From: Pandoraea thiooxydans
Lineage (GTDB): Bacteria; Pseudomonadota; Gammaproteobacteria; Burkholderiales; Burkholderiaceae
Assembly: GCF_001931675.1 (NCBI RefSeq)
Contig: NZ_CP014839.1
Coordinates: 1,550,001 to 1,614,000 of the forward strand
DNA: 64,000 bases
Direction of reading: 5' to 3'
In this document: piece by piece, positions 1 to 43,419 of the stretch
Layout of the letters: each line of letters begins with the position of its first letter
Numbering within the stretch: the first letter of the stretch is position 1
The notes under the pieces: generated by a model
Told to the model about the DNA's origin: nothing
Databases searched by the model: none
The model's input: the letters and a program-made list of their open reading frames with translations, nothing else
Translations under genes and position numbers: made by a program

Positions 1-408
1 CAGCGGTCCGTTGTCGGCGACGTCGTTGTTGACGTACAGCCCCGTCAACGTCTCGCCCAGCAGCAACGCGAGTAACAGCAATACCATCCAGCCGCCGGCC
101 GGATTGTGGCCGACCTGCACGTCGGGCTCGCGCCGCGTCAAATGCCGCAGGTGTTGCCATGCGGCCGCGGGCGAGGTGACAAAGGTCCTGAATCGCGCCG
201 TATCGCTGCCGAAGCAGCCCCACAGCAGGCGAAACAGCAGCAGCGCCAGCAACGCCTGGCCAATCCACACATGCCAGTCCATCCAGTTGAGCCGCGCCGT
301 GATATAGGCCGCGGCCACCAGCACCACCGCCAGCCAATGAAATAGCCGGGTCGGTGCGTCCCACACGCTGACCGAACGCATGATCGGCGCCGGTTGTTCA
401 GCGGCCAT
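1..408 (-). CDS. cytochrome b561 family protein (3' end outside window)
   Basis: The N-terminal 136 residues of a membrane b-type cytochrome are visible and the rest runs off the left edge. The start region carries the WDAPTRLFHW motif typical of the CybB / hydrogenase cytochrome-b family. It is followed by a first membrane segment (about residues 24-38), a second (about 50-62) and a third beginning near 112 with the sequence NPAGGWM. The histidine in FHW is a likely haem ligand. Such proteins pass electrons between quinone and a soluble partner such as a c-type cytochrome. The ATG at 408 overlaps the end of the upstream AraC-type gene by 11 bases, so the two are probably one transcript. The specific partner is not visible. 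Confidence 0.85.
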   Translation of the reverse strand, partial: MAAEQPAPIMRSVSVWDAPTRLFHWLAVVLVAAAYITARLNWMDWHVWIGQALLALLLFRLLWGCFGSDTARFRTFVTSPAAAWQHLRHLTRREPDVQVGHNPAGGWMVLLLLALLLGETLTGLYVNNDVADNGPL

Positions 409-1294
409 CGCGCATGCCCCGTGCGGGCGTATTGGCGGCGACAATGTCTCGCGGCGACACCCCCAGCAAGCGATTGATCCAGTGCGCCATGTGGCTTTGA
501 TGCGCGAACCCCGTGTCCAGCGCGATCTGGCTGGCACCGAGCTTGCCTTGCCGCAATAGGGCACTGGCCCGTTCAACGCGGCGCTGTATCACGTAGCGAT
601 GCACCGGCATGCCCAGGGTCTCCCGAAACAGCACCTTGAAGTGCGGCACGCTCAAGTCGACTATGGCGGCAAGTTCGGCAAGGGTGAGACGATCGGCGAG
701 ATGGCTGTCGATGTATTCGATCAGACGGGCAGCCGCGACCGGCGACAGCTTCCTGCGTCGTCGATCCTCGAGCGACGGCACCGCGCCGATCAGGCGCACG
801 ATCATCGCCGTGCACAGGCTCTGCGCATATAACGGATCGGACGCTTCGTCGGCCTCCAGTTCGGCGCGCAAGGCCCAGGCCAGATGCTGAAAGCGGGCAT
901 CGCGCATTTGCAGTCGTGGCCGAATGCTCGCCTGGGCAGGTTTCACGTTCAATTGATCGAAGGTCTGGCGCGCCAGCGGCTCGTCGATCCAGATGCTGAA
1001 GATCGTGCAACTCGCGTCGTCGGTCCATTGTCCGTCGAGCCCGGCGGGAATCACGTCGGCGTCGCCGTGTGCCTGAATGCGTGAGCCGCGCTGATTTTCA
1101 CAGTGGCAATGCGCCTTGACCGGCGCCCCGACATGCACGCCGATACGATGCACCGGCATGGCCGGGATGCGGTGCAAACCCGCCGATACGCTCATCAGAT
1201 CCGCTCCGAACCCGTTCCAACCCAGGCCTTTGCTGGAGCGCAGGCGCACGCGGGTACCGCTGTGGGGCAGGGCAATAGGCGAAGCGAGCTTCAT
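398..1294 (-). CDS. AraC family transcriptional regulator
   Basis: This is a 298-residue protein with the usual AraC/XylS layout. A variable N-terminal sensor part covers residues 1 to about 190. A C-terminal double helix-turn-helix begins near LTLAELAAIVDLSVPHF, and its second helix-turn-helix is around SQIALDTGFAHQSHMAHW, ending in the family-typical GVSPRDI. The effector cannot be told. It overlaps the start of the cytochrome b561 gene downstream and lies back-to-back with an NmrA-like gene, so it may control either. The ATG at 1294 has only a modest AGG-containing ribosome site. Confidence 0.9.
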   Translation of the reverse strand: MKLASPIALPHSGTRVRLRSSKGLGWNGFGADLMSVSAGLHRIPAMPVHRIGVHVGAPVKAHCHCENQRGSRIQAHGDADVIPAGLDGQWTDDASCTIFSIWIDEPLARQTFDQLNVKPAQASIRPRLQMRDARFQHLAWALRAELEADEASDPLYAQSLCTAMIVRLIGAVPSLEDRRRRKLSPVAAARLIEYIDSHLADRLTLAELAAIVDLSVPHFKVLFRETLGMPVHRYVIQRRVERASALLRQGKLGASQIALDTGFAHQSHMAHWINRLLGVSPRDIVAANTPARGMRDGR

Positions 1295-1485
1295 TGGGGG
1301 CCTCGTGGAGTGCCAAGGGTGCTGGCATTGTACTGCGACCGTGGCGCTTGCATCGGCAGCGGGTCGCCGCGGTGGTCGTAAAAAGTCATCCGAATCCGCG
1401 CAACACGATCCTTCCGTGCGCGCCAGACCGGGGCGGCACTTCTAAGATCTCGACGGATGAGACAGAAATCGACAAGGAGTCTGGC

Positions 1486-2394
1486 ATGTTCGTGATATTC
1501 GGGGCCGCGGGCAACGTCGGGCGCGCCAGTGCCGCGGCGTTGCGCGAGGCGGGGCGGCCGGTGCGAGCGGTGGTGCGCGATAGCGCTCAGGCCGGGCCGT
1601 TGGCCCGGCTCGGTTGCGAAATCGCCGTGGCTGATCTGTGCGAACCGGTGAGCGTCGCGCGCGCGCTCGACGGTGCGCAGGCGGTACAGATGCTATGTCC
1701 GGTGCCGCGATCGGGCAGCCTGCCGGCGCAGGCGATGCGCCATATGATCGACGTGGCCGCCAGCGCATTGCAGATGAATCCGCCACCGCGCATCGTGGCG
1801 CTGTCCGACTACGGTGCCGAGCTGCGTGGCGGAACCGGCATCACCGAGTTGTTCCATGAACTGGAATCAAGCCTTGCGCCGCTCGGCACGCGCCTGACGC
1901 TGCTGCGCTCGGCCGAGCACATGCACAACTGGGCCCGCGTCATGCCTGTGGCGCTTGCCACCGGCATCCTGCCCAGCCTGCACGAGCCGCTCGACAAACG
2001 CTTTCCCTGCGTGGCCGCGCAAGACGTCGGACGCCTGGCCGCCGAATTGCTGAGCGATACATTCAATGCGACGGCCTCCGCCGATCCGCGCGTGGTCAGC
2101 ATGGAAGGGCCGGAGCGCGTAAGCGCACTCGACGTGGCTCGTGTGCTGAGCGATGTCAGCGGCCATGAGGTGGTTGCCCGCACGGTGCCCCGTGAGCATC
2201 GTGCAGCCATGCTGGGCCGGGCCGGATTGAGCGAGCAGCACGTGCGGCTGATTTGTGATCTATACGACGCCCACAATGCGGGCCGCATTGACGTCGAGGC
2301 CGGTGTTGGCCAATGGCGTCGGGGTACGACGACCCTCGCGCAAGCGTTCGCCGCGCTGGTGCCGCGTGTGGCCGCGGCCATGTCGCGCCAGTAA
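1486..2394 (+). CDS. NmrA-like NAD(P)-binding protein
   Basis: This is a 302-residue Rossmann-fold protein of the atypical short-chain dehydrogenase (NmrA/azoreductase-like) group. The nucleotide loop FGAAGNVG (GxxGxxG) is at residues 5-12, and VVRD near 31-34 fits the end of the second beta strand. Members act as NAD(P)H-dependent reductases or redox-sensing regulators, and the substrate is unknown here. The frame is open further upstream, but the ATG at 1486 follows an AAGGAGT ribosome site at 1474-1480 and starts exactly at the beginning of the fold, so it was chosen. It is divergent from the AraC gene, which may regulate it. Confidence 0.85.
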   Translation: MFVIFGAAGNVGRASAAALREAGRPVRAVVRDSAQAGPLARLGCEIAVADLCEPVSVARALDGAQAVQMLCPVPRSGSLPAQAMRHMIDVAASALQMNPPPRIVALSDYGAELRGGTGITELFHELESSLAPLGTRLTLLRSAEHMHNWARVMPVALATGILPSLHEPLDKRFPCVAAQDVGRLAAELLSDTFNATASADPRVVSMEGPERVSALDVARVLSDVSGHEVVARTVPREHRAAMLGRAGLSEQHVRLICDLYDAHNAGRIDVEAGVGQWRRGTTTLAQAFAALVPRVAAAMSRQ

Positions 2395-2413
2395 TGCCCT
2401 GTGGGAGACGAAT

Positions 2414-2599
2414 ATGGCTATTTGCCCTTTGACGGGTATATCGCGAGAACTTCCGAGTTTGCACGTTGAAATATGCACGCTCGCAGCGCGCCGCATGCGG
2501 CACTGTGCGCGGCGCTTACTGACAGTCGCCGGCGGCCGGTGGCTTCAGGCCCTGCTCGACGGACTGCCTCGCAGCAACGACGATTTCGACGTGTACTGA
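2414..2599 (+). CDS. small hypothetical protein
   Basis: This is a possible 61-residue protein starting MAICPLTGISRELPSLHVEI. A GGGAGA ribosome site lies 6-10 bases before the ATG, and the gene sits in the 220-base space after the NmrA-like gene. The C-terminus is acidic (DDFDVY) and the middle is arginine-rich (ARRMRHCARR). No family is recognised. It could equally be a chance frame, so confidence is low. Confidence 0.3.
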   Translation: MAICPLTGISRELPSLHVEICTLAARRMRHCARRLLTVAGGRWLQALLDGLPRSNDDFDVY

Positions 2600-2615
2600 G
2601 GCAAGCCGCCCGCCC

Positions 2616-3566
2616 TCATTGCCGCTGAGCCATCGCCAGCCAGGGCGCGAGGTCGCGCGCGAACGACGAGACGCCGGGCTCGGCCGAGGTGCGGGTTTCG
2701 ATAGCGGTGAGCACAGCCACCATATCCTCGCTGTCGTGGCCCAGCGCCAGGGTTTCCTCATAGAGCGCGTGGCAAACATCGAGCAGCGGCGAGGCAATAC
2801 CCGCCTCGCGCGCGGCCTCGGCGATCAGGCGATTGTTTTTCAGTACGTCGGGGATCGATGCCTGCACGGCGAAGTCACGCTCAACGAGCTTCGGGGCCTT
2901 GACGCGCGAGACGTCGCTGGCCATCTGGCCGGCGTCGAGGATGCGCACCAATTGCTGGAGGTCGAGCCCCTGGCGCGCGGCGAAATGAACCGATTCGGCC
3001 AGGCCCGTGACGGTCGATATCAGGAAGATATTGACCGCGAGTTTCATCAGGAGTGCGTTGGGCACGGCCCCGCATACCGTCACCTCCCGGCACATCGGCC
3101 GCAGCAGCGCACTCACCTCGGCCACTGTCTGCGCTTCGCCCGCCAGCATGGCTACCAGCGTCCCGGCCTCCGCCGGTTTGCGCGAACCCGAGACCGGCGC
3201 CTCGACGTAACGCGCGCCGACGCTGCGCAGGTCAGCCTCGAGCCGGCGCGAGTAGGCGGGGGAAGTCGTGCCCATGTGCACGATAGTCTTGCCCCGCACG
3301 CGCACCGCGAAGCCGGCGCTGTCCCGACCGAGCACGGCGTCGATCGCCAGGTCGTCGGCCAGCATCAAAATTATCGTGTCCGCGCCCGCGAATACGTCTG
3401 CCGCATTTGCTGCAACGCGAGCGCCCGCGCTTGCCAGGCGGGCCGTCTTGGCCTCGGAACGATTCCACACCAGCAGCGGCATGCCGGCCTGGACCAGATT
3501 CAGCGCCATGGGCTCGCCCATCGAGCCCAGCCCGATGAAACCGAGCGGGGAAGCAGTATTGCCCAT
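2616..3566 (-). CDS. NAD(P)-dependent beta-hydroxyacid dehydrogenase (HIBADH/GarR family)
   Basis: This 316-residue protein matches the length and layout of 3-hydroxyisobutyrate / tartronate-semialdehyde reductases. The N-terminal Rossmann motif is [13 protein letters not shown] (residues 9-21). The family substrate signature appears as [15 protein letters not shown] near 125-139, and the catalytic lysine lies in LLMKLAVN near 178. The C-terminal all-helical domain follows. The enzyme would oxidise a 3-hydroxy acid or reduce the semialdehyde in the cytoplasm. A longer frame exists, but the ATG at 3566 has an AAAGAGA ribosome site and begins at the fold. It lies downstream of a same-strand LysR gene (191-base gap), its probable regulator. 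Confidence 0.85.
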
Positions 3567-3757
3567 CGAGATTCTCTTTGGTCTGGGTTGCAGCGCAGGC
3601 CGGCGCCCCGCGCCCGGTGTGCGCTCGGGAGCACGCCGGCCCTCCTGAATCTCAGTGTGGCAGCGCCTGGCCGGCGCGACAAAGGAAAAGATTTTGACCC
3701 AAGGTGAGGCAAATTCATCTCGCCAGCCACGCGCATCGGCGCGCATTCGTCGCCGGG

Positions 3758-4678
3758 CTAGCGCACGGTGGCGCCTTCACTCGCACCCGTGAATTGCTCG
3801 GCTTCGCTCACCAGCCATTGCTTGAATCCCGCCAGATCGGCGCGCTCATCGGCGCCGTCGGCGCAAACCAGCCAATAAGCGGTCTGAGTGGCCACCATGG
3901 CCGGACTGATCTCGACCAACAAGCCCGCGGCGAGCTCACGCTCCACCATCGGATGGCGGCCCAGCGCAACGCCCAGCCCGGCGGCGGCGGCTTCGAACGC
4001 CAATTGGATCGAATCGACGTGCAGCCCACCTGCGAGCGCGATGCTTTCCATGCCTGTGGCATCGCACCAGGCTTGCCAATCTTCACTGGCCGAGTCGACG
4101 TGGATCAGCGTGGCCCGGTGTAAATCGGCGCGGCCGGCAGCGTCGCCCAACGCGTCCCGATAGGCGGGGCTGCAAACCGGCACCAGCTGCTCGCCGAACA
4201 GCCGCGTCCAATCCGCGCCGGCGTCCGGCGCGCGGCTCAGCCGGATAGCGAAGTCGAAGCCGTCGGCCGGGAATCCGACTTGCCGCCGCGACGTGTCGAC
4301 TCTCACATTGACTTGCGGCCAAAGGCGGCGAAAGCGCTGCAGGCGCGGCAGCAGCCAGCGCGAGGCGAGGGTGGGGGCGCAACTCACGGCGATGGTGCGC
4401 TCGGCCCGGTGCGCGGCCAAGCGTTGCGTGCCGGTGGCCAGGAGCGCAAACGCCTCGGCCACGTAAGTCAGATAGTCCGCGCCGGCGGGTGTAAGCGATA
4501 GCGCGCGCGTCTCTCGCGCAAAAAGCTCGACCCCGAGCGCCTGTTCCAGCGAGACGATGCCATGACTCACGGCGCTTGGCGTCACGTTCAACTCGGCGGC
4601 GGCGAGCTTGAAGCTCTGGAGCCGGCCGGCCGCTTCGAAAAAACGCAGCGAAGTCAATGGGGGAAGACGAAACGGCAT
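3758..4678 (-). CDS. LysR family transcriptional regulator (GcvA-like)
   Basis: This 306-residue protein has the LysR winged helix-turn-helix near its N-terminus ([20 protein letters not shown], then [13 protein letters not shown]). The PPLTSLR start and the cofactor-domain length are typical of the GcvA subgroup. A GTG lies one codon upstream, but the ATG at 4678 has better spacing from GAGG. The probable target is the hydroxyacid dehydrogenase downstream on the same strand. The inducer is unknown. Confidence 0.88.
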
Positions 4679-5004
4679 CACGCATCCTCGACAGCAGTCC
4701 GGTGGATCGCTCGCACCGCCCGCAAAAAGAGCCGGGCGAATCCCGCGAAAACGGGCGCTGGCGCGCAGCCGGCCCGCAAGTCAAACGAGCATACCGGGCG
4801 GCGCCGAGACCGGCAAGCCAGCAGGCGCTCCTCTGCACGATTTGCCGCATGTGTAACGTAACGCGGCCGCCGGCGTAACGTGACAGGCGGGTGGGCGCGG
4901 CACGGGGCAGCGGTGCGCGGGCAGACCAGCCTCGGCGCGATGGTCCTTGCCCGGCAAGGTCGGACGCGCGCGCGGCACGGGCCTCGACCGGGCGTGCCGC
5001 CGCT
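4679..5004. other. intergenic stretch without a recognised gene
   Basis: No reading frame here looks like a real protein: the frames present are arginine/alanine-rich shadows with no ribosome site. The one notable pattern is a pair of related elements, TGTAACGTAACG (4852-4863) and GGCGTAACGTGAC (4872-4884), between the divergent LysR and PilZ genes. They could be regulator sites, but this is only a pattern observation. Confidence 0.4.
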
Positions 5005-5020
5005 TGGCACGACAGTTGCT
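5005..5020 (+). promoter_or_regulatory. sigma-54 (RpoN) promoter for the PilZ gene
   Basis: TGGCACG at 5005-5011 and TTGCT at 5016-5020 match the sigma-54 consensus TGGCACG-N4-TTGCW exactly. The GG and GC dinucleotides are separated by the required 10 bases. Transcription would start near 5032, leaving about a 40-base leader before the ATG at 5072. The gene would then need a bacterial enhancer-binding protein, whose site is not identified. Confidence 0.75.
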
Positions 5021-5071
5021 ATTTACCAGGTAATGTCGGGACCGTCCGGCGGCGAATTCAATTGATCGATC

Positions 5072-5959
5072 ATGGAACTGCTCGAAATCCCCGTATCTGC
5101 CATCAAGATTGGCGAACCGCTGCCCTATTCGATCTATGACCCTGCCGGCCAACTGATGTTGGCCAAGGGGTTGGCAGTGATGTCCGAAGCCCAGCGCGAA
5201 AAGATTGCGCAATGGGGCCGGCAATTGGCCAGCCCGATCGAACTCACGCCACCGCTCGAGGCTCATGCGGCCACATCGGCGCACGGCGCGAACGCGGCGC
5301 GAGTTGGCGAAGTTCGTATCCGATCCGGACAACTGCTGAAAAAATGGGCCAAAACCGTTTTGCTGCAGCCGGCCGGCAGTGCGCGCAGATTCGAAGCCGA
5401 GTTGCTTGGTGCGATTGACGGACATAGCCTGATCGTATCGTGCCCGTGCGGGCTCGACGAGTACGGCGGCCATGCGCCCGGCAGCCGGTTCGACGTCAAT
5501 GTATTCAACGGCGTGGCGATTCATCAGTTTCCCGCCAGCGTGCTGTGCGCGTATGAAGCGCCAGTGCCGCATCTGCATCTGTCGTTGCCCCCGGTGGCGC
5601 GGGAAATTCGCTTGCGCCGCCATTTGCGGGTCGAGACCGCGATTGCGGCGACGCTCTACGGGCGTCTGCGCGATCAGGCGCAGCTCTCGCAGGGGCGCAT
5701 CGTCGACCTCAGCGTGGCGGGAGCGGGCATTGAAACCGACTATCCGGCGCTCGAGTCGTTCGAGGAGTTGCGAATCGGCTTCAAGTTTGCCCTCGACGAC
5801 GGCCAGACGCTGACGTGCAACGTCCGAGCGGCGGTGCGCCAGAAGAGCCAGCTGGCGGGGACGATGGTCCGCTATGGCGTCGCTTTCACCGAACTCACAC
5901 CCTCGCTCGCCAACATGCTGCGCATCGGGGTGCTGGAGATACTGCTGCGCGGCCTGTAG
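5072..5959 (+). CDS. PilZ-domain c-di-GMP-binding protein (YcgR-like)
   Basis: This 295-residue cytoplasmic protein has a C-terminal PilZ domain. The c-di-GMP motif RxxxR is R182-R186 (RRHLR), and the D/NxSxxG motif is DLSVAG at 212-217, so both halves of the ligand site are intact. Residues from about 105 to 170 resemble the YcgR N-terminal domain that docks on a flagellar or motility target. Residues 1-60 are an additional leader. The likely role is a c-di-GMP-dependent brake or switch in motility or surface behaviour. It follows a perfect sigma-54 promoter, as many flagellar or type IV pilus genes do. The ribosome site is weak. Confidence 0.85.
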   Translation: MELLEIPVSAIKIGEPLPYSIYDPAGQLMLAKGLAVMSEAQREKIAQWGRQLASPIELTPPLEAHAATSAHGANAARVGEVRIRSGQLLKKWAKTVLLQPAGSARRFEAELLGAIDGHSLIVSCPCGLDEYGGHAPGSRFDVNVFNGVAIHQFPASVLCAYEAPVPHLHLSLPPVAREIRLRRHLRVETAIAATLYGRLRDQAQLSQGRIVDLSVAGAGIETDYPALESFEELRIGFKFALDDGQTLTCNVRAAVRQKSQLAGTMVRYGVAFTELTPSLANMLRIGVLEILLRGL

Positions 5960-5998
5960 GCAAGCGCCTGCCGAGCGGGCCGCCGGTGCTCCGCTCTC

Positions 5999-6012
5999 TT
6001 GATTTTTGTCAA
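5999..6012 (+). promoter_or_regulatory. FNR/ANR box upstream of cbpA
   Basis: TTGATTTTTGTCAA matches TTGAT-N4-RTCAA, with one base off the ideal ATCAA half. A TAAACT -10-like element at 6034-6039 is centred 31 bases from the box centre, the class II geometry (box at about -41.5). The box centre is about 118 bases before the cbpA start. The window also encodes an FNR-type regulator, which strengthens the reading. Confidence 0.65.
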
Positions 6013-6123
6013 AGCCCTCGATCCGGCCAATCCTAAACTTCAAGGATCGCGTCGCGTGCGAGCGTCGCCGGCGCCGCGCGCGGGGCGGCTTCGCCATGCG
6101 CTCATGGCCTTCCCGAGGCTCCC

Positions 6124-7068
6124 ATGAAATACAAGGACTACTATCAAACGCTGGGCGTCGAGCGCTCGGCCACGGCCGACGAGATCAAGCGAGCCTATCG
6201 CAAGCTGGCCCACAAATACCATCCCGACATTTCGAAGGACCCGCACGGCGAGGCCAAATTCAAGGAAATCGCCGAAGCCTACGCGGTGCTCAAAGACGCG
6301 GAAAAGCGCCAGGCTTACGATGATCTTGGCCGGCGGCCGGCCGGCGAGTCGTTCACGCCACCGCCGGATTGGCAGCAGCATTTCAATACTTCGGGGGACG
6401 GCTTCGACAATGTCGACCTGGCCGACCTTTTCGAGGCGTTCCGGCGTACCAGGCATGGCGCGCAAGCCCAGCGCGAGATACCCATCCCGGGTCAGGACTA
6501 CGAGATTGCGGTGCCGGTATCGCTGGAGCAGATTTTTCGCGGCGACCGGATCGAGGTGCGCGCAGAGGTGCCGGAGTTCGACGCCAACGGCCTGGCCCAT
6601 CGCGCCGAGCGGGCGTTTCACGTGAAGTTGCCCAAGGGCGCGGCGGACGGGCATCGCCTGCGTCTGGCCGGCAAAGGCGGGCCCGGATATCAGGGAGGGC
6701 GGCCGGGCGATCTATACGTCGTGCTGGCGCTGCAACCGCATCCGCTTTACCGGGTCGATGGGCGGGACGTCTATATCGACCTGCCGCTGGCTCCCTGGGA
6801 GGCAGTGCTGGGAACCGTGGTCCGGATCCCGACGCTGGCCGGTCCGGTCGAGCTCGATATCAAGCCGGGCACGACCGCCGGCACCAAGCTGCGGCTGGCC
6901 AGTCGCGGCCTGCCCGCGTCGGACGGAAGCACTGGTGCGCTCTATGCGGTCGTGCGCATCGAGGTCCCGAAAGTTGTCAGCGCGAACGAGCGAGCCCTGT
7001 ATGAGCAATTGGCTGCCGCCTCCAGAGTCAACCTGCGGCAGCATCTCGAAAAGGAGGCGACACCATGA
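6124..7068 (+). CDS. cbpA: curved DNA-binding protein / DnaJ-class co-chaperone CbpA
   Basis: This 314-residue protein has an N-terminal J-domain (residues 1-70, KDYYQTLGV start). The Hsp70-activating HPD is in KYHPDISKD near 37. A Gly/Phe-poor linker and two DnaJ C-terminal substrate-binding domains (about 118-300) follow, and the zinc-finger region of true DnaJ is absent. That is the CbpA architecture: a DnaK co-chaperone that also binds curved DNA in the nucleoid. A GAGG ribosome site precedes the ATG. The stop overlaps the cbpM start (ATGA), so the two are translationally coupled, and an FNR-like box suggests induction under low oxygen. Confidence 0.93.
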   Translation: MKYKDYYQTLGVERSATADEIKRAYRKLAHKYHPDISKDPHGEAKFKEIAEAYAVLKDAEKRQAYDDLGRRPAGESFTPPPDWQQHFNTSGDGFDNVDLADLFEAFRRTRHGAQAQREIPIPGQDYEIAVPVSLEQIFRGDRIEVRAEVPEFDANGLAHRAERAFHVKLPKGAADGHRLRLAGKGGPGYQGGRPGDLYVVLALQPHPLYRVDGRDVYIDLPLAPWEAVLGTVVRIPTLAGPVELDIKPGTTAGTKLRLASRGLPASDGSTGALYAVVRIEVPKVVSANERALYEQLAAASRVNLRQHLEKEATP

Positions 7069-7385
7069 ACCTGCAAAGTACCACTGCGGTGTGGCTCAAT
7101 GGCGATGGCGTGTGTCAGATCGAATATTTGGCGGAGATCTCTGGACTGTCGCTCGACGAGATCGAGGATCTGATCGACAACGAGGTGATCAATCCGGTCG
7201 ATCCGGCGCAATCGCCGCGCATGTTTGCGCTGGAGGGCGTGGCGACCGCGCAAATGGCGCGCCGCTTGCGCGATGACTTCCTGCTCGACCGCCACGGTCT
7301 CGCACTGGCGCTGACGCTGATGCGCCGGGTGACACAGCTCGAAAGCGAGTTGCAGGCCCTGCGCGCTCGTGCCGGCAGGGTTTGA
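7065..7385 (+). CDS. cbpM: chaperone modulator CbpM
   Basis: This 106-residue protein has a MerR-like helix-turn-helix fold region (residues about 15-60, LAEISGLSLDEIEDLIDNEV) and a C-terminal amphipathic helix (RRVTQLESELQALRAR). Those are the features of CbpM, which binds the J-domain of CbpA and blocks its co-chaperone and DNA-binding activities. It overlaps the cbpA stop by four bases. Length and context fit the family. Confidence 0.9.
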   Translation: MNLQSTTAVWLNGDGVCQIEYLAEISGLSLDEIEDLIDNEVINPVDPAQSPRMFALEGVATAQMARRLRDDFLLDRHGLALALTLMRRVTQLESELQALRARAGRV

Positions 7386-7413
7386 GGGCGGACGATGCGG
7401 AGCCGCGGCCCCG

Positions 7414-8274
7414 TCAATGCGACAGCAGGGTCGGCACAGTCATGGTGCGCAGCAGCGTGCGGGTCACGCCTCCCATCACCAGTTCACGCAGGCGGGCATG
7501 ACCATAGCAGCCCATCACGATCAGGTCGGCGGCCACGTCGGCGGCGCGCGTGAGCAGCAGCTCGCCGGCATCGGCTTTGTCCACACCCACTTCATGGCTC
7601 ACCGGTATCACCTCGCATGTCGAGGAGATACCGTGACGGGATAATTGATCGACGAGCGCCTGGGCGTTTGGCGCATCGAGTCGCGGCTCCCCGGTCGTCG
7701 GGGCGATGATGGCCACGCTGACGTGATCGGCCCGTTCGAGCAGCGGCATGGCGTCGCCCACGGCACGAGCCGACTCGCGGCTGCCGTTCCAGGCGATCAG
7801 GACGCGGCCGAATCGGAGCGGTAGCGGGCCGGTATATGGCACGACCAGCACTGGACGTCCGCTGGCGAGGATCAGATTCTCGTTGAAACGCTCGAGCACC
7901 GGTGCGGCCGGGGCTTGCTGGTCATGCTGGCCGAGTACGATGAGATCGGCATGCCGCGCGTGCAGGACGGCCAGATCGTCCGGCACGCCCTGGGGAGCGC
8001 GCCATTCGGCGGGTACCCCGGCGCGCGCCGCGGCGGTTTCGAACTTTTGCCGTGCCTCTTGCTCGTGAGGCCGATCCGGGGCGGTTCGGCGATCAAGCGC
8101 CGCCTGAAGACTTTGGCGGTTGATTGCCGGGTAGGCGAAGTCGGCCGGCAACACCGGCAAATAGAGTCCGACCAGATGAGCATTGCCCGCGGAGGCCAGA
8201 TTTGCCGCCAGGTCGATGCGTGCGGCGCAGCGCGGCGTGTCGTCGATGTGAACCAGAATCGTTTGATAAGCCAT
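7414..8274 (-). CDS. tandem-domain universal stress protein
   Basis: This 286-residue protein has two UspA domains in tandem. The first begins YQTILVHIDDTP and is degenerate at its nucleotide loop. The second begins FGRVLIAWNGSRESARAV and ends with the GCYGHARLRELVMGGVTRTLL stretch, a variant of the ATP-binding G-x2-G-x9-G(S/T) motif. Two adjacent ATGs occur, and the second (8274) is better spaced from GGAG. It follows a single-domain USP gene and probably shares its FNR-boxed promoter. In related bacteria such proteins support survival under oxygen or energy limitation. Confidence 0.9.
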   Translation of the reverse strand: MAYQTILVHIDDTPRCAARIDLAANLASAGNAHLVGLYLPVLPADFAYPAINRQSLQAALDRRTAPDRPHEQEARQKFETAAARAGVPAEWRAPQGVPDDLAVLHARHADLIVLGQHDQQAPAAPVLERFNENLILASGRPVLVVPYTGPLPLRFGRVLIAWNGSRESARAVGDAMPLLERADHVSVAIIAPTTGEPRLDAPNAQALVDQLSRHGISSTCEVIPVSHEVGVDKADAGELLLTRAADVAADLIVMGCYGHARLRELVMGGVTRTLLRTMTVPTLLSH

Positions 8275-8310
8275 CATGTCGCTCCATGCGCTCGCAAACC
8301 AGGTCAAGGA

Positions 8311-8823
8311 TCAATGCTGCGGTTCGGCCTGGCCGGTGGCCTGGCTGGCCTCGCCGGCCGGCTGCGCGGGCGCGTCGGACCTGACCAGCAGCACGGGCTG
8401 GGTGGCGGTGCGCATCAGCTGCTCGGCCACACTGCCCATCAGCACGCGTCTGGCACCGCGCCGGCCGTGCGTGCCGAGCACCATCAGATCGGCCGGCCAG
8501 CGAACGCTCTCGTCGTGAATGGCGGTGGCAATGTCCACGGCCAGTTCGCGCAAATCGAGCAGACGGGTTTGCACGTCGACGCCGTAGCCGCGCAACTGCC
8601 GTTCGGCGTTGCCCAACAGTTCGCGGCCGGCCTGAAGCATGGCGTCGCGCACCGACTCGATGTCGTAGTAGCCGCTGTACACCGACGGAAAGGTCAGGAC
8701 CGGATCCTCGACGACGTTGACCACGCGCACCGTGGCGCCGGGTTCCGCGATGTGGCTGATTTCGGTGAGCGCCTTGGCCGAGGTCGGGCTGTCGTCGATG
8801 GCCAGAAGTATATGTTGATACAT
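8311..8823 (-). CDS. universal stress protein (single UspA domain)
   Basis: This 170-residue UspA-family protein begins MYQHILLAIDDSPTSAKAL. It has the ATP-binding loop GTHGRRGARRVLMGSVAEQL (G-x2-G-x9-G-S) near residues 118-137, so nucleotide binding is likely. The last 20 residues are an alanine/glutamine-rich tail beyond the fold. It is the first gene of a two-gene USP unit. An FNR box centred about 113 bases upstream of its start and a TATAGT -10-like element suggest anaerobic induction. Confidence 0.92.
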   Translation of the reverse strand: MYQHILLAIDDSPTSAKALTEISHIAEPGATVRVVNVVEDPVLTFPSVYSGYYDIESVRDAMLQAGRELLGNAERQLRGYGVDVQTRLLDLRELAVDIATAIHDESVRWPADLMVLGTHGRRGARRVLMGSVAEQLMRTATQPVLLVRSDAPAQPAGEASQATGQAEPQH

Positions 8824-8929
8824 GATCGATCCCTGAACGCTGAGATGTTGGGCCGCAGCGCAATCCGCGGCGCGCCACCCCCACTATAGGCCGGAATGCG
8901 CGATTGTCGCTCGCTCGCCCACGCGCGGC

Positions 8930-8943
8930 TTGATCTGCGTCAA
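8930..8943 (-). promoter_or_regulatory. FNR/ANR box upstream of the universal stress genes
   Basis: TTGATCTGCGTCAA fits TTGAT-N4-RTCAA. On the minus strand a TATAGT element lies at 8883-8888, about 51 bases from the box centre. This is the class I FNR spacing (box centred near -61.5). The box lies between the fnr-type gene and its neighbour, and only the USP genes read away from it in the right orientation. Confidence 0.7.
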
Positions 8944-8961
8944 GGCGCCCGGACCGCTGGC

Positions 8962-9768
8962 TCAGGCGCTCAGCCGCGCCGGCTCGAGCACGGCGCGCAG
9001 GCCGTCCAGATCGACGATGCGGATCAGTCTTTGCCGCATCGCGATATAGCCGGCGTCCTGGAAGCGAGAAAAAATGCGGCTCACGGTTTCCATTTTCATG
9101 CCGAGGTAATTGCCGATTTCTTCGCGCGTCACACGCAGGTTGAACTCGCTCGACGAGTACCCACGGGCTGTCAGGCGCGCCGAGAAATCCAGGATAAAGG
9201 ACGCGACACGCTCTTCGGCGCACATATTGCCGAGCACCATCAGCAGCTTGCGTTCGCGGGAAATCTCCGCACCGAGCAGGCGATGGACCATGTGCTGAAT
9301 GGTCGGCATATCGAAGCTCAACTGCTCCAGGTGCTTGAACGGAATCACGCAGACCTGGCTGTCTTCGAGCGCCACGGCGTCGCAGTCGTGCTGGCCGCCG
9401 GTGATGCCGTCCAGACCCAGCAGCTCCCCAGAAATCTGGAATCCGGTGATCTGCTCGCGCCCTTCGGGATTGAACAACTGGGTCTTGAACGATCCGGCCC
9501 GCACTGTGTAGATATTCTCGAAAGGATCGCCCCCGTGGTATAGCGCGTGGCCGCGTCGAACTGTGCGCCGCGCCGCGATCAGCGTGCTGAGCAATTCTGT
9601 ATCCTGCGCGCTCAAACCGCTGGGCAGGCAGAAGTCGCGCAGCAGGCACGAGGTGCAACGCAGTGCCGCCGTGTTGTCGGAAACTTCGCGCAGATGATGG
9701 ATCTGCCGCTTGGGAAAAGCCGCTGCGACAGAAATTGCGGGGGATGACGCTAATGTTTCGAGTGACAT
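8962..9768 (-). CDS. fnr: FNR-type oxygen-responsive transcriptional regulator (Crp/Fnr family)
   Basis: This 268-residue Crp/Fnr protein carries the full cysteine set for an oxygen-labile [4Fe-4S] cluster: C38, C41 and C47 (C-x2-C-x5-C) plus C129. The cyclic-nucleotide-like beta barrel covers roughly 60-170. The winged helix-turn-helix has VTREEIGNYLGMKMETVSRI near 216-235, with the E-x2-SR recognition residues that read TTGAT half-sites. It should be active without oxygen. It sits between its probable targets (USP genes) and a two-component pair, and matching boxes occur at 8930, 5999 and possibly 50529. Confidence 0.93.
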   Translation of the reverse strand: MSLETLASSPAISVAAAFPKRQIHHLREVSDNTAALRCTSCLLRDFCLPSGLSAQDTELLSTLIAARRTVRRGHALYHGGDPFENIYTVRAGSFKTQLFNPEGREQITGFQISGELLGLDGITGGQHDCDAVALEDSQVCVIPFKHLEQLSFDMPTIQHMVHRLLGAEISRERKLLMVLGNMCAEERVASFILDFSARLTARGYSSSEFNLRVTREEIGNYLGMKMETVSRIFSRFQDAGYIAMRQRLIRIVDLDGLRAVLEPARLSA

Positions 9769-9801
9769 GGTGGGCTCCGTAATGCGCGATGAGTCACAAA
9801 T

Positions 9802-10197
9802 CTATTGTTTTTGCTGCGTCGACAACGTTTGAACAATCTCGAGCAAACGTCCAAGTTCGGCCGTCTTGTCGAGGAAAAAAGCCGCACCGCCTTTCATGCA
9901 GATGTCCTGAATGTAAGGCACCGCATAATTGGTCAGAACGATCACCAGCACGCCCGGCAAGTGCTCTTTCAAGTGCTTGAGCACTGTCAGGCCAGTGCCG
10001 TCAGTGAGCTTCAAGTCCAGGATGACGGCGTCCGGCTTGTGTCCGTCGATCCCCTCGATCGCCTCGCGCACGCTGGTCGCAAAGCCGATGACATGCACCA
10101 GCGGCAAGGCGGCTAACCGGGTCAGCAAACGCTCGCGGATCAGGGCGGAGTCTTCGACCAGATAGACCTGGTATTTGGGTGAGAGGCACGATTTCAT
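9802..10197 (-). CDS. receiver-only response regulator
   Basis: This is a receiver domain of about 131 residues with no output domain. The acidic pair is in VYLVEDSALI, the phospho-acceptor aspartate is in AVILDLKLTDG, the threonine is in VLTNYA and the lysine is in FFLDKTAE, so all switch residues are present. An ATG nine codons further upstream is possible, but neither start has a strong ribosome site. It lies between the fnr-type gene and a PAS histidine kinase on the same strand, so it is probably the kinase's partner. It must act through protein contact or phosphotransfer. Confidence 0.85.
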   Translation of the reverse strand: MKSCLSPKYQVYLVEDSALIRERLLTRLAALPLVHVIGFATSVREAIEGIDGHKPDAVILDLKLTDGTGLTVLKHLKEHLPGVLVIVLTNYAVPYIQDICMKGGAAFFLDKTAELGRLLEIVQTLSTQQKQ

Positions 10198-10263
10198 GGC
10201 TCCAGTATGCAAAGCCGCGGCCATGAAAACCAGACGCCAATGGCTGGATTGAATATCGGTGCG

Positions 10264-10291
10264 GGACTACATCTGTAGGCAAAGGACTACA
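10264..10291. promoter_or_regulatory. repeated GGACTACA element before the response regulator gene
   Basis: GGACTACA occurs at 10264-10271 and again at 10284-10291, exactly 20 bases (two helical turns) apart. The first copy also forms the palindrome CTACA-TC-TGTAG (10267-10278). It lies in the 143-base gap between the kinase and the response regulator genes. It may be a regulator site, but no binding protein can be named. Confidence 0.35.
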
Positions 10292-10340
10292 CGGCGATGC
10301 GCGGGGCCGGACGGTGCTCGCCCGGGGCGCGGTGCAAGCG

Positions 10341-11462
10341 TCATCGACCGTCGCCGCCGGGCGCGAGGACACTCATCAGGGGAATGGCGATGGCGATGTG
10401 CACACCGCGCCCCGGCATGTCGTCGATGACGAGCCTGCCGTCCAGGCGATCGACCCGTTCGCGCATGCCCATCAGGCCGAACGACCGGGTGTTGGCGCGA
10501 GCGTCGGAGCGCATGCCCTGGCCGTCGTCCTCGATGCGCAGCAGGCAGGCGCCGTCGCGCGCGCTCAGGTCGATGCTGACCCGGCTGGCGCGGGCGTGGC
10601 GAGCCACGTTGGTCAACGCTTCCTGAACGATATGAAACAGCGTCGCAGCGGCCGCGTCGCTTAGCGTCAGGTCGCCCAGCGCGGCCTGAAATTCGACCGA
10701 GATGCCATAGCGCCGGCTGAAATCCTCGGTGAGCCAGTCGAGCGCCGGCACCAGACCGAGCGTCTCGATCGCGATCGGATGCAGCCCGGCGACGATACGT
10801 CTGAGCGAGGCGACGCTGACGTCGATCAGCCGGTGCATATCCTGCATGCCGGCCGCTGCCTGTGGAAGATCGGCCAGGCGCGCCTCGAGCGCGCCATGCA
10901 GTTCGGCCAGCGCCATCTTGAGCGCGGTGAGCTGCTGGCCGAGCTCATCGTGCAGCTCGCGCGCAATGCGCGCCTGCTCCTCCTCGCGCGCGGCCTGGAT
11001 ATGGCTTGAAAATCGGCGAATCTGCTCGAGCTCCGCGAGCCGGCGGCGCTCGGTCAGGTCTTGTGTGACCTTGGCGAACCCCCGCAATGTGCCCTGGTCG
11101 TCGCGAATCGCGGTGACGATCACGTTGGCCCAGAATTTCGAGCCGTCCTTGCGCACGCGCCAGCCCTCGCTCTCGTAGCGGCCGTGCGCGGCGGCGCCGG
11201 CAAGCTCCCGGCCGGGCTGGCCGGCGTTCACATCGTCCGGCGTATGAAATACCGAGAAATGCCGGCCGAGGATTTCCGCGGCCTCGTAACCCTTCATCTT
11301 GCGAGCCCCAGGGTTCCAACTGGCGACGTTGCCGGCCGGGTCGAGCATGAAAATCGCGTAGTCGTCGACGGCCTCGATCAGCAAACGGAAGTTTTCGTCG
11401 GCTGGCACATGAGGCGGAGGTGGTGGCGTGGTGTCCAGGGGCCCGGTCGCCTGATCGCTCAT
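10341..11462 (-). CDS. PAS-domain sensor histidine kinase (HisKA_3 / NarX-type)
   Basis: This 373-residue soluble protein has no membrane segment. A PAS domain spans about 28-140 and ends in RGFAKVTQDLTERR. The HisKA_3 dimerisation helix follows, with the phospho-accepting histidine in RIARELHDELGQQL near 170. A HATPase_c domain comes next, with the N-box FHIVQEALTNVARHA, the G1 box DDGQGM and the G2 region SFGLMGMRERV. This is the HPK7/NarX class that normally pairs with NarL-type regulators, yet the adjacent regulator has no DNA-binding domain. The start at 11462 has a GAGAGGA site. PAS may bind haem or flavin, but this cannot be told. Confidence 0.9.
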   Translation of the reverse strand: MSDQATGPLDTTPPPPPHVPADENFRLLIEAVDDYAIFMLDPAGNVASWNPGARKMKGYEAAEILGRHFSVFHTPDDVNAGQPGRELAGAAAHGRYESEGWRVRKDGSKFWANVIVTAIRDDQGTLRGFAKVTQDLTERRRLAELEQIRRFSSHIQAAREEEQARIARELHDELGQQLTALKMALAELHGALEARLADLPQAAAGMQDMHRLIDVSVASLRRIVAGLHPIAIETLGLVPALDWLTEDFSRRYGISVEFQAALGDLTLSDAAAATLFHIVQEALTNVARHARASRVSIDLSARDGACLLRIEDDGQGMRSDARANTRSFGLMGMRERVDRLDGRLVIDDMPGRGVHIAIAIPLMSVLAPGGDGR

Positions 11463-11711
11463 CGTCCTCTCCGGAGCGGCGAGCCCGGCTCCGGCTGGGC
11501 ATGGGGATCCTAGCCTGGCCTGGGGGGATGTCGCCAATACAGCACATTCTAGTTTTATTTGGCAGTAATTGGAATCGGCTTGAACCCGGGGAGGGGAGAC
11601 CCATCCGGCGTGCGTTTGTGGCAGTATGTAATGATGCCGAAGCGTGAGCTTGGCTTGCGCGGCGCGTAACGGTGCGCCTGGCTCTGATCGACTTGGAAAA
11701 AGGCAACGAGA

Positions 11712-12689
11712 ATGAAAGCAGCCTGGTACACCGAAGCCGGCGATGCGCGCCGCGTGCTGGTGGTGGGGGAGCTCGAGACGCCGTCGCCGGGCCCCGGCGA
11801 AGTGCGCGTGAAAGTTGCCGTGTCCGGGGTGAATCCCTCGGACGTCAAGACGCGGCGCCGGCCGCTGGCGTTTCCCCGCGTGATACCGCACAGTGACGGG
11901 GCGGGCGTGATCGACGCCGTCGGTGCGGGAGTTGCGCCGTCGCGCCTGGGACAGCGTGTCTGGCTCTGGAACGGCCAGTGGCAGCGCCCGATGGGTACCG
12001 CTGCGCAGTATATCGTGGTGCCCGAGGCGCAGGCCGTATGGCTGCCCGAGCACATCGATTTGGCTGCCGGGGCCTGCCTCGGCATTCCGGTGCTGACCGC
12101 CTACCAGGCGGTACGCCTGCTTGGCGACGTTGCCGGCAAGACGATCCTCGTGACTGGCGCCGGTTCGTCGGTGGGCCACTATGTGACGCAGATCGCCACC
12201 CAGCAGGGAGCCCGCGTGATCGGCACCGCCGGCTCGGCAGCCCGGCTGGCCAATGCCACGGCGGCGGGCGCGAGCGCGGTGATCGACTATAAGCTGGAGC
12301 CGGTGGCCGCGCGCATCAAGGCGCTGACCGACGAACGCGGCGTCGATGCCGTGATCGACATGGATCTGTCGAGCACCGCCGCCTACGTGCGCGACGGTGC
12401 ACTGGCGCCGCACGGCACGCTGGTTTGTTACGGCTCGAATCAGGCCGACGATGTCCCGTTGCCGTTTCGCATGTTGCTGTACCGCTCGATCGCGGTGCGC
12501 TTCTTCCTGATCTATGATCTGCTGCCGGCCGACCGCGAGGCAGTGCTGGCCGGCGTCAATGCACTGCTGGCGCACGACAGGCTCGTGCATCATATCGCCG
12601 CGCGCTTTGCACTCGACGATATTGCCGCGGCGCACGAGGCAGTCGAGGGCGGCAAGCTGGTCGGCAATATCGTCGTCGACCTTCCCTGA
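11712..12689 (+). CDS. NADPH:quinone oxidoreductase (zeta-crystallin-like MDR)
   Basis: This 325-residue medium-chain reductase lacks the zinc-ligand cysteines of alcohol dehydrogenases, which fits the quinone oxidoreductase branch. The N-terminal GroES-like domain includes VSGVNPSDVKTR and HSDGAGVIDAVGAGV. The Rossmann loop is VTGAGSSVGHYVTQIA near 147-162. It probably reduces quinones or alkenals with NADPH in the cytoplasm. AAGG lies about nine bases before the ATG. It is followed by a NIPSNAP and a DUF488 gene on the same strand. Confidence 0.88.
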   Translation: MKAAWYTEAGDARRVLVVGELETPSPGPGEVRVKVAVSGVNPSDVKTRRRPLAFPRVIPHSDGAGVIDAVGAGVAPSRLGQRVWLWNGQWQRPMGTAAQYIVVPEAQAVWLPEHIDLAAGACLGIPVLTAYQAVRLLGDVAGKTILVTGAGSSVGHYVTQIATQQGARVIGTAGSAARLANATAAGASAVIDYKLEPVAARIKALTDERGVDAVIDMDLSSTAAYVRDGALAPHGTLVCYGSNQADDVPLPFRMLLYRSIAVRFFLIYDLLPADREAVLAGVNALLAHDRLVHHIAARFALDDIAAAHEAVEGGKLVGNIVVDLP

Positions 12690-12749
12690 GCGGCGCCGCC
12701 GTCACACCGCACAGGTCTTGTTTTTCACAGTCATGAAAAAGGCCATTCC

Positions 12750-13076
12750 ATGATCCACGAGCTGCGCATCTATCACTGCGCCCCGGGCCGTCTGCCCGCG
12801 CTGCATGACCGTTTCCAGAACGTTACCCTCAGGTTTTGGGAAAAGTACGGCATCAGGCCGGTTGCGTTCTGGACAACCGCCATCGGGCCGACCAATCAGG
12901 CGCTGACCTACCTGCTCGAGTGGGAGAGCCTGGCCGAGCGAGAGGCCAAATGGGACGCCTTTATCGCGGACCCGCAATGGCAGGCCAAGCGGGCCGAAAG
13001 CGAGGCACAGGCGATCATTGTCGAGCGTATCGAGAATCAGATTCTGGTGCCGACGGCATATTCCCCGTTGCGTTGA
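12750..13076 (+). CDS. NIPSNAP family protein
   Basis: This 108-residue protein has the NIPSNAP alpha/beta-barrel features: the start HELRIYHCAPGRLPALHDRF, then FWTTAIGPTNQALTYLLEWESLAERE. The family is a dimeric ferredoxin-like fold of uncertain role, often found beside oxidoreductase genes. It lies 60 bases after the quinone oxidoreductase gene and is probably co-transcribed with it. Confidence 0.85.
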   Translation: MIHELRIYHCAPGRLPALHDRFQNVTLRFWEKYGIRPVAFWTTAIGPTNQALTYLLEWESLAEREAKWDAFIADPQWQAKRAESEAQAIIVERIENQILVPTAYSPLR

Positions 13077-13138
13077 AGCGTTATCCCGCTCCTGGCCTGC
13101 GTTGAGCGGCGCAGGCTGTTCGTTTTGAAGGATGAGCC

Positions 13139-13525
13139 ATGAGCGTCCGTATTATCCGACTCGGCACCCCGCGCGCGCCCGACGAGGGCCTGCGCATCGG
13201 CACCGTGCGGCGACCGCCGCGCGGCGTGCCGAAGGCCGAATTCAGCAAGCGCGATTATTACGACGTCTGGCTGCCGAACCTCTCACCCAGTCCCGAGCTG
13301 GTTGCCGAGGCCCAGGCCGCCGAAAGCGAGGCCGACTGGAATCGCTTCAAGCGAAAATTCCGTGCCGAGATGAATACCAGCGAGCACGGCAAGGTGCTCG
13401 ACCTGCTGGCGGCCCTGTCGCATACCACGCATTTTTCGGTGGGCTGCTACTGCGTCGACGAAAGTCGCTGCCATCGCAGCGTTCTGCGCGAATTGCTGCA
13501 GGAGCGCGGTGCCGAGATCAAGTGA
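13139..13525 (+). CDS. DUF488 family protein
   Basis: This 128-residue DUF488 protein begins VRIIRLGTPRAPDEGLRIGTVRR. It has the family's C-terminal HTTHFSVGCYCVDESRCHRSVLRELL segment, where the cysteine cluster (GCYC, then RCHR) is conserved. No biochemical function is established for the family. An AAGGAT site precedes the ATG. The last eight bases overlap the convergent AraC-like gene on the other strand. Confidence 0.85.
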   Translation: MSVRIIRLGTPRAPDEGLRIGTVRRPPRGVPKAEFSKRDYYDVWLPNLSPSPELVAEAQAAESEADWNRFKRKFRAEMNTSEHGKVLDLLAALSHTTHFSVGCYCVDESRCHRSVLRELLQERGAEIK

Positions 13526-14264
13526 GCCCGGGCTGCGCGCCGGAGAAGAATCCGCGTGGCAGTCTGGCCGGAAAGTGAGCGGTTGTGGTGTCGTCGTGCC
13601 GGTGCGCAAGCCGCCGCGAACGGATATGCGCTCGCTCCAACGCATCGCAGTCGATGCACACGACCCTGCGGAATGCCTCGCTCATGGCCGTGGGGGTGCC
13701 CAGCCCGACGGCGCTGGCGATTTGCTCGAGGGCGAGCCCGGTGGTCATCATCTGCACCAGCGCAGCGAATACGCGCTGCCGCTCAACCACGGCTGCCAGA
13801 TTGGTGCCGTCCTGCGCCAGCAGGCCATGGAGGGTGCCCTGCGGCAACTGGCAACGCCTGGCCAGCGTGTCGGCCCGCCACTGCGCATTGGGTGCGCGAA
13901 AAACCTGACGGCCCAGCGCTGCGGCCAATGACGTGCCTTCGGGGGCGGCCATGCATCCGGCGTGGTGATCGGTCTCGAAGGTGAGGATGGCTCTGGCGGC
14001 GATGCCCGCGCATGGTTTTGCCGCGAGCAGATAGTCCACAGGGGTGCCAGGCGGCAATTCGGCGTCCTGACCGGCATGAATGATCCGGCGGTTTGGCTGG
14101 CCAGTCAGCGTCAATGTGCCGGACAGCATCTGGATGCGCAGCGCATAGGGGATGTCGACGCCGCGCAGCTCCAGTTGATTCGTGGCGGTCAGCGGCACGC
14201 GCAGCGGGAAGGGCAGTGCCGCGCGCGTCCACAGCACGCCGATCGCCCGGCGAGCGCCGTTCAT
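13518..14264 (-). CDS. AraC-like transcriptional regulator (last gene of CoA-ester operon)
   Basis: This 248-residue protein has an N-terminal cupin-like half (about 20-110, with LRVPLTATNQLELRG and AELPPGTPVDYLL) and a C-terminal AraC-like helix-turn-helix half. The second helix-turn-helix is LALEQIASAVGLGTPTAMSEA, and the first (ADTLARRCQLPQGTLHGLL) is less typical. The start at 14264 overlaps the stop of the CitE-like gene (ATGA), so it is the terminal gene of the operon. The divergence of the AraC domain makes the call somewhat tentative. Confidence 0.7.
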   Translation of the reverse strand: MNGARRAIGVLWTRAALPFPLRVPLTATNQLELRGVDIPYALRIQMLSGTLTLTGQPNRRIIHAGQDAELPPGTPVDYLLAAKPCAGIAARAILTFETDHHAGCMAAPEGTSLAAALGRQVFRAPNAQWRADTLARRCQLPQGTLHGLLAQDGTNLAAVVERQRVFAALVQMMTTGLALEQIASAVGLGTPTAMSEAFRRVVCIDCDALERAHIRSRRLAHRHDDTTTAHFPARLPRGFFSGAQPGLT

Positions 14265-41922: not shown

Positions 41923-43419
41923 TTACGCGCCCGCTCCGATTCCTGCAGATCGGACTGCCTTTGATTCTTCGCGCTGCGGCGTCCAGCCGCCGCCCAGCGC
42001 GCGGAAGGCGGCAACGGCCGCACGGGCCTGGTCGGCATGGGCTCGCGCCAGTGCATCGCGGGCGACGAGAACCCGGCGAGTTTCATTGAGCACTGCGATC
42101 AAACTGACATTGCCGGCACGATATTGCTCTTGCGCCGCGGCCTTGGCCTGTGTCCGCGCCGCGACCTGCTGGCGCAGGGCGGTCGTTTGCGCCTGCAATT
42201 GAACGCATGCGGCAATCGCATCTTCGACGTCTTCCGTCGCGCGCAGCATGGCTTGCCGATAGCGTGCCAGCGCCTCGGCGTTGGCTCCGCGAGCCCGGGC
42301 GACTTCGGCATCGATGCGACCGAAGTCGAACAGTCGCCAGTGCAGACCCACGAGCGCACTCGGCTGGAAGGCCGCGGCGGTGAGCAGAGTGCCGCCGCCC
42401 AGGCTCTCGAAGCCGAGCAGGCCTGCCAGCGAGACCTTCGGATAGTACTCGCTGAGCGCCGCGCCGATCCGGGCATTCGAGGCCGCCAGGCGGCGCTCGG
42501 CGGCGATGACATCAGGCCGGCGGCGCAACAATTGGCGCGGCCCATCGCCGGTGTCGATTGCCGGAATCGCGTAGTGTGCCGGAGCTTTCACCAGCTTGGG
42601 CGCGATGGTGCCGGGCGGCTCGCCCATCAGCACATCCAGGCGGTTGAATTGACGCTGCAGCGCACTTTGCAATGGCGGCAGGCTGGCCCGTGTCCGAGCC
42701 AACTGAGCCTGGGCATGGGCCAGCACGCGTCGGGTTGCCACGCCGTCGTCCACGCGCTGGCGCGCCAGCGCGAGCAGGCGGGCATCGGTTGTGACCTCGG
42801 CCTGGGCTAGGGCGATGCGGCTTTGCAAGCCGCGTGCCTGGAAGTACGCATCGGCGGCCTCCGCGGACACGCTGACGCGTACGCCGTCATGCATTGCCGA
42901 GGCGGCCTGGGCCTCTGCGCGCTGCGCCTGTGCGGTGCGTCGCAAACCTCCGGCAAGGTCGAGTTCCCAGCTGGCGCCGACGTCGAGGTTGGTCAGTGTT
43001 TGGTCACGCTCATAGCCAGGTAGCGCGCTGGCGATCTTGCCCAACGGACTGTCGAGCGACTGATGCTGACGCGCCGCACTGCCGTCGAGATCCAGCCGTG
43101 GCAGGTCTTGCGCGCCAGCTTCGCGAGCAACGGCGCGCGCCTGCGCCACCCGGGCCTCGGCTGCGGCCAGATCGAGATTCTGCCGCAGCACGCGCCGGAC
43201 AATGGCCACCAGGGTCGGATCATGGAAGCCGTTCCACCAGGTGTCCAGCGGTGGGGCCTGGCGCTGGCCGTCGATGACCGTCAGTGCGGCCTGGCCGTGG
43301 TAAATGGTTGCCGAGGCAAGATGCGGCTCGGTGTAATGCGGGCCGACCGCGCATCCGGCCAGCAAAGTCACAAGACCGACGGCGAGCCGCCGGCGATGGT
43401 TGGAAAGGTGGAGTCTCAT
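41923..43419 (-). CDS. outer-membrane efflux lipoprotein (NodT/OprM family)
   Basis: This 498-residue protein has a lipoprotein signal peptide with lipobox LLAGC near residue 22, then two repeats of the TolC-type outer-membrane factor (long coiled-coil helices rich in Ala/Arg/Gln). The EPHLASATIYHGQ and RRRPDVIAAERRLAASNARIG stretches are typical of NodT proteins. It forms the outer-membrane channel for the EmrAB pump encoded 11 bases upstream. GAGGCGA precedes the ATG. Confidence 0.92.
   Translation of the reverse strand: MRLHLSNHRRRLAVGLVTLLAGCAVGPHYTEPHLASATIYHGQAALTVIDGQRQAPPLDTWWNGFHDPTLVAIVRRVLRQNLDLAAAEARVAQARAVAREAGAQDLPRLDLDGSAARQHQSLDSPLGKIASALPGYERDQTLTNLDVGASWELDLAGGLRRTAQAQRAEAQAASAMHDGVRVSVSAEAADAYFQARGLQSRIALAQAEVTTDARLLALARQRVDDGVATRRVLAHAQAQLARTRASLPPLQSALQRQFNRLDVLMGEPPGTIAPKLVKAPAHYAIPAIDTGDGPRQLLRRRPDVIAAERRLAASNARIGAALSEYYPKVSLAGLLGFESLGGGTLLTAAAFQPSALVGLHWRLFDFGRIDAEVARARGANAEALARYRQAMLRATEDVEDAIAACVQLQAQTTALRQQVAARTQAKAAAQEQYRAGNVSLIAVLNETRRVLVARDALARAHADQARAAVAAFRALGGGWTPQREESKAVRSAGIGAGA

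Follow-up and report, generated by a model that had tools for sequence, protein, structure and literature searches.

The question raised by this locus is whether a predicted c-di-GMP receptor gene, pilZ, is wired to RpoN separately, as an earlier note on this DNA had proposed, or together with other genes. The window is a 64,000 nt stretch (G000:C1:1550001–1614000) of a single-contig, Pandoraea-like genome of 4.46 Mb. The pilZ gene (positions 5072–5959, + strand) encodes a protein of 295 aa, with an N-terminal region of approximately 95 aa followed by a PilZNR and a PilZ domain. The Pfam match to PilZ has an E value of 5e-9; that to PilZNR, at 3.6e-5, is just over the cut-off. The PilZ protein contains RRHLR (residues 182–186) and DLSVAG (residues 212–217), which we take to be the RxxxR and D/NxSxxG c-di-GMP motifs. 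The combination by which a YcgR-like receptor is recognized, PilZNR and a PilZ domain with both motifs, is present, and the intact c-di-GMP site attributed to the gene is borne out. A 17-sequence PilZ profile matches the structure chains of VCA0042 with an E value of 2.3e-13 (profile residues 101–287) and YpfA with 3.4e-10. The product is thus similar to YcgR and VCA0042 (PlzD) in its domains, ligand motifs and profile match, and is predicted to be a c-di-GMP receptor of this type, but it differs in the ~95 extra N-terminal residues, which are outside the match, and in the sigma-54 promoter of its gene. PilZ matches in the genome number five. Besides pilZ, one lies within a frame of 657 aa, and the frames of the other three are 133–151 aa long. 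Because of these frame lengths, the pilZ product appears to be the only PilZNR-PilZ protein of the genome.

As read by eye, pilZ is preceded by a LysR-like gene and followed by CbpA/CbpM-like genes. The terminator search gave no match that would separate pilZ from the downstream cbpA-like gene, and for this reason the two may form an operon. A flagellum is encoded elsewhere in the genome (FliG_C at G000:C1:4205624), but no flagellar gene was recognized by eye in window positions 1–14000, in agreement with the earlier note. Flagellar (FleQ-like) control of pilZ was rejected on this ground, and because the enhancer described below resembles that of tad loci.

The sequence at positions 5005–5020 (+ strand), TGGCACGACAGTTGCT, is an exact match to the sigma-54 (-24/-12) consensus. 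Its GG-N10-GC core, with GG at 5006–5007 and GC at 5018–5019, 10 bases apart, lies inside TGGCAC-N5-TTGC(A/T), and the pilZ ORF begins 51 bases past the site. The exact RpoN consensus and spacing first read here are confirmed. This is the one zero-mismatch match to TGGCACGNNNNTTGCW in the whole window; at up to two mismatches there are 6, below the chance expectation of 15.6. The complete genome has three exact matches, the pilZ site included. With up to one mismatch there are 53, compared with 41 for the reversed control pattern, so a near-match by itself has little meaning. The weight is carried by the exactness, position and conservation of the 5005–5020 site. Transcription of pilZ would be expected to start near position 5031. 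The genome has one rpoN gene and eight strong sigma-54 activator matches. Exact sites are also found before an ABC-transporter ATPase-like ORF (G000:C1:2088814, L087) and a periplasmic binding-protein-like ORF (G000:C1:3794512, L088), both named by eye, and a sigma-54-like sequence with one mismatch, AGGCACGCGGCTTGCA, is at window positions 42824–42839 (- strand).

Upstream of the promoter are two putative enhancer dyads that are absent from the earlier note. The first, GTAACGTAAC (positions 4853–4862), is a strong form of the palindrome GTNACGTNAC, and the second, GTAACGTGAC (positions 4875–4884), starts 22 bp from it. They are about 149 bp and 127 bp, respectively, upstream of the promoter GG. 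These tandem dyads, which are conserved, would represent the upstream activator sites that accompany sigma-54 promoters.

Orthologous loci are found in two metagenome-assembled genomes. Locus L006, the same contig place as in G048, comes from a genome labelled Pandoraea sp., and locus L007, the same as in G164, from one with the label Burkholderiales bacterium. Both dyads are kept in both. Alignment of the three upstream regions reveals two conserved islands, the dyad block and the sigma-54 block. L007 is the orthologue that has diverged most. Against it, the window is identical at 34 of 39 positions of the dyad block (87%) and at 20 of 24 of the sigma-54 block (83%), compared with 60/112 (54%) in the DNA separating the two blocks, 63/146 (43%) further upstream of the dyads and 33/47 (70%) in the leader. 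The 5005–5020 element is identical in L006 and has one mismatch in L007. Upstream of pilZ, the window and L006 have LysR-like and dehydrogenase-like genes; neither was detected across the 8.9 kb of L007, which argues that the dyads go with pilZ and not with the LysR-like neighbour. L007 keeps pilZ and the CbpA/CbpM-like and Usp-like genes.

The strict GTNACGTNAC palindrome occurs 21 times in the genome. Four of these have A or T at both variable positions (GTWACGTWAC), at 1554853 (the first pilZ dyad), 1212424, 1262296 and 1263350. All four have a sigma-54-like site with two mismatches or fewer at 130–192 bp, i.e., at 147, 192, 132 and 130 bp, with 0, 2, 1 and 2 mismatches, respectively. None of the 16 remaining strict dyads, the second pilZ dyad being set apart, has a site of this quality at 60–260 bp. 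Random positions (n = 6100, from 12 stretches of the genome) have such a site in 2.5% of cases, and in 14% when three mismatches are allowed. The pair pattern ACGTNACN{8,20}GTNACGTNAC, which includes the second pilZ dyad, gives four rows at three places in the genome, and the reversed control gives none. The three GTWACGTWAC dyads other than that of pilZ precede secreted collagen-like or SPLAPVTG-repeat proteins. The site near 1212424 is before two Collagen_mid (PF15984) proteins, beside flp and tad genes (tad genes named by eye). The sites at 1262–1263 kb precede secreted-looking proteins that share SPLAPVTG-like repeats and have no Pfam match at E 0.01. Two of the repeat proteins are consecutive (G000:C1:1262417–1264510, L086), and each has a dyad and a sigma-54-like site to itself. 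In G048 two dyads with sites are likewise found in one stretch, presumably the counterpart of this one.

The sigma-54 activator gene P0001 (G000:C1:1224784–1226184) terminates the Flp/Tad pilus locus, and its product has a Sigma54_activat domain and a Fis-type HTH. Its N-terminal 130 residues have no Pfam match at E 0.01. The VpsR domain (PF20161) that marks activators of the BerB/VpsR type was not found in P0001, and among NCBIfam sigma-54 activator equivalogs (25 of 27 families listed) none reaches its cut-off. P0001 is present in 31 of 32 Pandoraea genomes (E ≤ 1e-60) and in 60 of 120 genomes of the family, from 11 of 25 genera (E ≤ 1e-100). The tad stretches compared were taken from 19 other Pandoraea genomes, where 18 extend to flp (all but L151), and from 20 genomes of nine other genera, where 17 extend to the flp side (all but L200, L202 and L210).

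All of these loci were picked for carrying P0001, and it is of such loci that the following counts speak. A strict dyad is present in every locus that reaches the flp side (18/18 in Pandoraea, 17/17 in the other genera), and it has A or T at both variable positions in 18/18 and 14/17, respectively. A sigma-54 site with up to two mismatches is found at 60–300 bp in 16/18 and 15/17 loci; at up to three mismatches all 18 and 17 have one, those of L152, L166, L199 and L211 being three-mismatch sites. The site with up to two mismatches that was counted for L209 is 252 bp away and on the opposite strand. This locus excepted, the dyad is about 130–225 bp from the site in all loci with a site of two mismatches or fewer. 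Three or more PL[AS]P[VI] motifs are present in the ORF that follows the site in 15 of 16 Pandoraea loci, the exception, L167, being cut by a contig end, and in 10 of 15 loci of other genera. Two of the other five, L198 and L204, seem to be misread, in that the longest ORF was chosen and is probably in the wrong frame; in L206, L209 and L212 the ORF is Gly-rich and lacks the motif.

The receptor gene itself has a narrow distribution. Of 32 Pandoraea genomes, 3 have a pilZ orthologue (89–92% identity), in 26 the only relatives are at 22–28% identity, and the remaining 3 have no relative at E 1e-5. Among 28 distant relatives, which were taken from many more matches listed, none has a strict dyad within 500 bp upstream, or a sigma-54-like site there that retains GG and GC and has three mismatches at most. 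Control by sigma-54 and dyads as a family-wide rule for PilZ receptors is therefore rejected for the part tested. The dyad-pair pattern matches in 15 of 32 Pandoraea genomes. In the three that carry pilZ it gives 10 hits, compared with 2 for the reversed control. In the 29 without the orthologue its 18 hits equal the background (20 for the reversed control), so the pair pattern alone is uninformative outside the three pilZ genomes. Pair hits with a sigma-54-like site of two mismatches or fewer nearby are seen in L098, L103 and L110, and G166 has four overlapping hits at one place with such a site nearby. L110 (G109) and L098 (G156), from other Pandoraea, have near-identical dyad pairs, with the sigma-54-like site 77 bp from the locus centre and with 1 and 2 mismatches, respectively.

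The explanation that we favour, with fair confidence in it as a whole, is that P0001 and sigma-54 drive pilZ through the dyads, together with adhesion genes. The DNA itself shows the promoter and the dyads, both conserved, the cis pattern shared between loci and the location of the activator gene in the tad locus. Sigma-54 RNA polymerase would transcribe pilZ from 5005–5020, and P0001 would bind the GTNACGTNAC palindromes of the dyads at 4853–4884 and make contact with the promoter through a DNA loop. P0001 would also switch on the secreted collagen-like and SPLAPVTG-repeat proteins. As P0001 would be common to the adhesins and pilZ, the start of the adhesion programme would then also yield a c-di-GMP receptor. 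The choice of P0001 as the dyad binder is based on co-location, in a genome with seven further strong activators. The use of sigma-54 in the cell, the activator that binds, its trigger and the output of the receptor are what we infer. At high c-di-GMP that output would most plausibly be a slowing of flagellar rotation, as with YcgR; the pilZ product perhaps acts in this way, a tentative assignment drawn solely from family resemblance.

If the promoter is a sigma-54 promoter, another activator could still bind the dyads, e.g., the VpsR-domain (PF20161), BerB-like protein encoded at G000:C1:2568604 (- strand, L070), and pilZ transcription would then itself depend on c-di-GMP. Such an activator does exist in the genome, and according to PMC5552954, BerB and RpoN drive berA, another c-di-GMP effector gene, in the related Burkholderia cenocepacia. 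RpoN control of a c-di-GMP effector gene thus has a precedent. The product of berA differs, however, in being a CRP/FNR-type transcription factor of an exopolysaccharide cluster, in place of a PilZ protein behind a tad-type enhancer. No strict dyad is present in the 19 kb surrounding the VpsR-domain gene, whereas every P0001 tad locus that reaches the flp side has one, and the VpsR-domain protein is accordingly an unlikely first choice. Near its gene is TGGCACGGATGTCGCT, at 2567696 (- strand), which resembles the berA promoter as given in PMC5552954.

A somewhat less probable alternative is that the regulator bound at the dyads is of another kind, e.g., a repressor of adhesion genes, with the sigma-54 activator binding elsewhere; short palindromes can serve many types of regulator, but the distance from dyad to sigma-54 site, which stays within about 130–225 bp in the loci with a site of two mismatches or fewer, L209 excepted, is as enhancers would show. 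It is very improbable that the sigma-54 match arose by chance and that pilZ has another promoter: the genome-wide excess of one-mismatch matches over the reversed control is small, but this site is exact, intergenic and conserved together with the enhancer, and no sigma-70-type promoter match was found in window positions 4700–6130.

P0001 acting through the dyads remains the preferred explanation, and some of its parts have possible counterparts in Burkholderia. BCAL1523 and BCAL1524 of B. cenocepacia are Collagen-middle-region proteins whose genes adjoin flp (PMC10224339), like the Collagen_mid (PF15984) genes beside flp here. On contact with host-membrane vesicles, the two were reported to rise together with the flp genes (PMC7970998), which is consistent with a shared switch. 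The difference is that neither a sigma-54 promoter nor an enhancer is named for them in the portions available of these two papers. In B. dolosa, the pilus cluster that is altered in a fixLJ mutant contains a gene annotated as a response regulator (PMC5234846); this gene may be the counterpart of P0001. A literature search, which covered mostly non-subscription sources in part and is weak evidence of absence, found no account of the dyad enhancer, nor any statement that sigma-54 drives a PilZ gene or controls the collagen-like genes on the flp side.

The wiring of the c-di-GMP receptor to RpoN is therefore upheld by the exact site, its footprint-like conservation, an enhancer at a typical distance and the presence of rpoN and activators. 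That the receptor is wired separately is probably wrong, since its enhancer is of the type found at the locus for the Flp/Tad pilus and collagen-like adhesins, in this genome and in other genera. Surface adhesion and c-di-GMP reception are probably switched on together. The simplest reading is that the receptor joined an older tad/adhesin sigma-54 regulon, probably in the 3 of 32 Pandoraea genomes that have it. There is about an even chance that this represents an undescribed adhesion regulon of the Burkholderiaceae, in which collagen-like adhesins are preceded by GTTACGTAAC-type enhancers that the tad activator recognizes, and to which one Pandoraea lineage added what seems to be its sole PilZNR-PilZ receptor.

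If this is true, the adhesion switch would itself produce the response to c-di-GMP, and this feed-forward link between the surface programme and motility arrest would tie the Flp/Tad adhesion system to c-di-GMP reception. It would be an example of a lineage rewiring a receptor gene, which is put under the control of an enhancer and promoter arrangement that already existed. The dyad would also provide a concrete candidate operator for the sigma-54 activator that accompanies Flp/Tad genes in many genomes, in a family that includes opportunistic lung pathogens.
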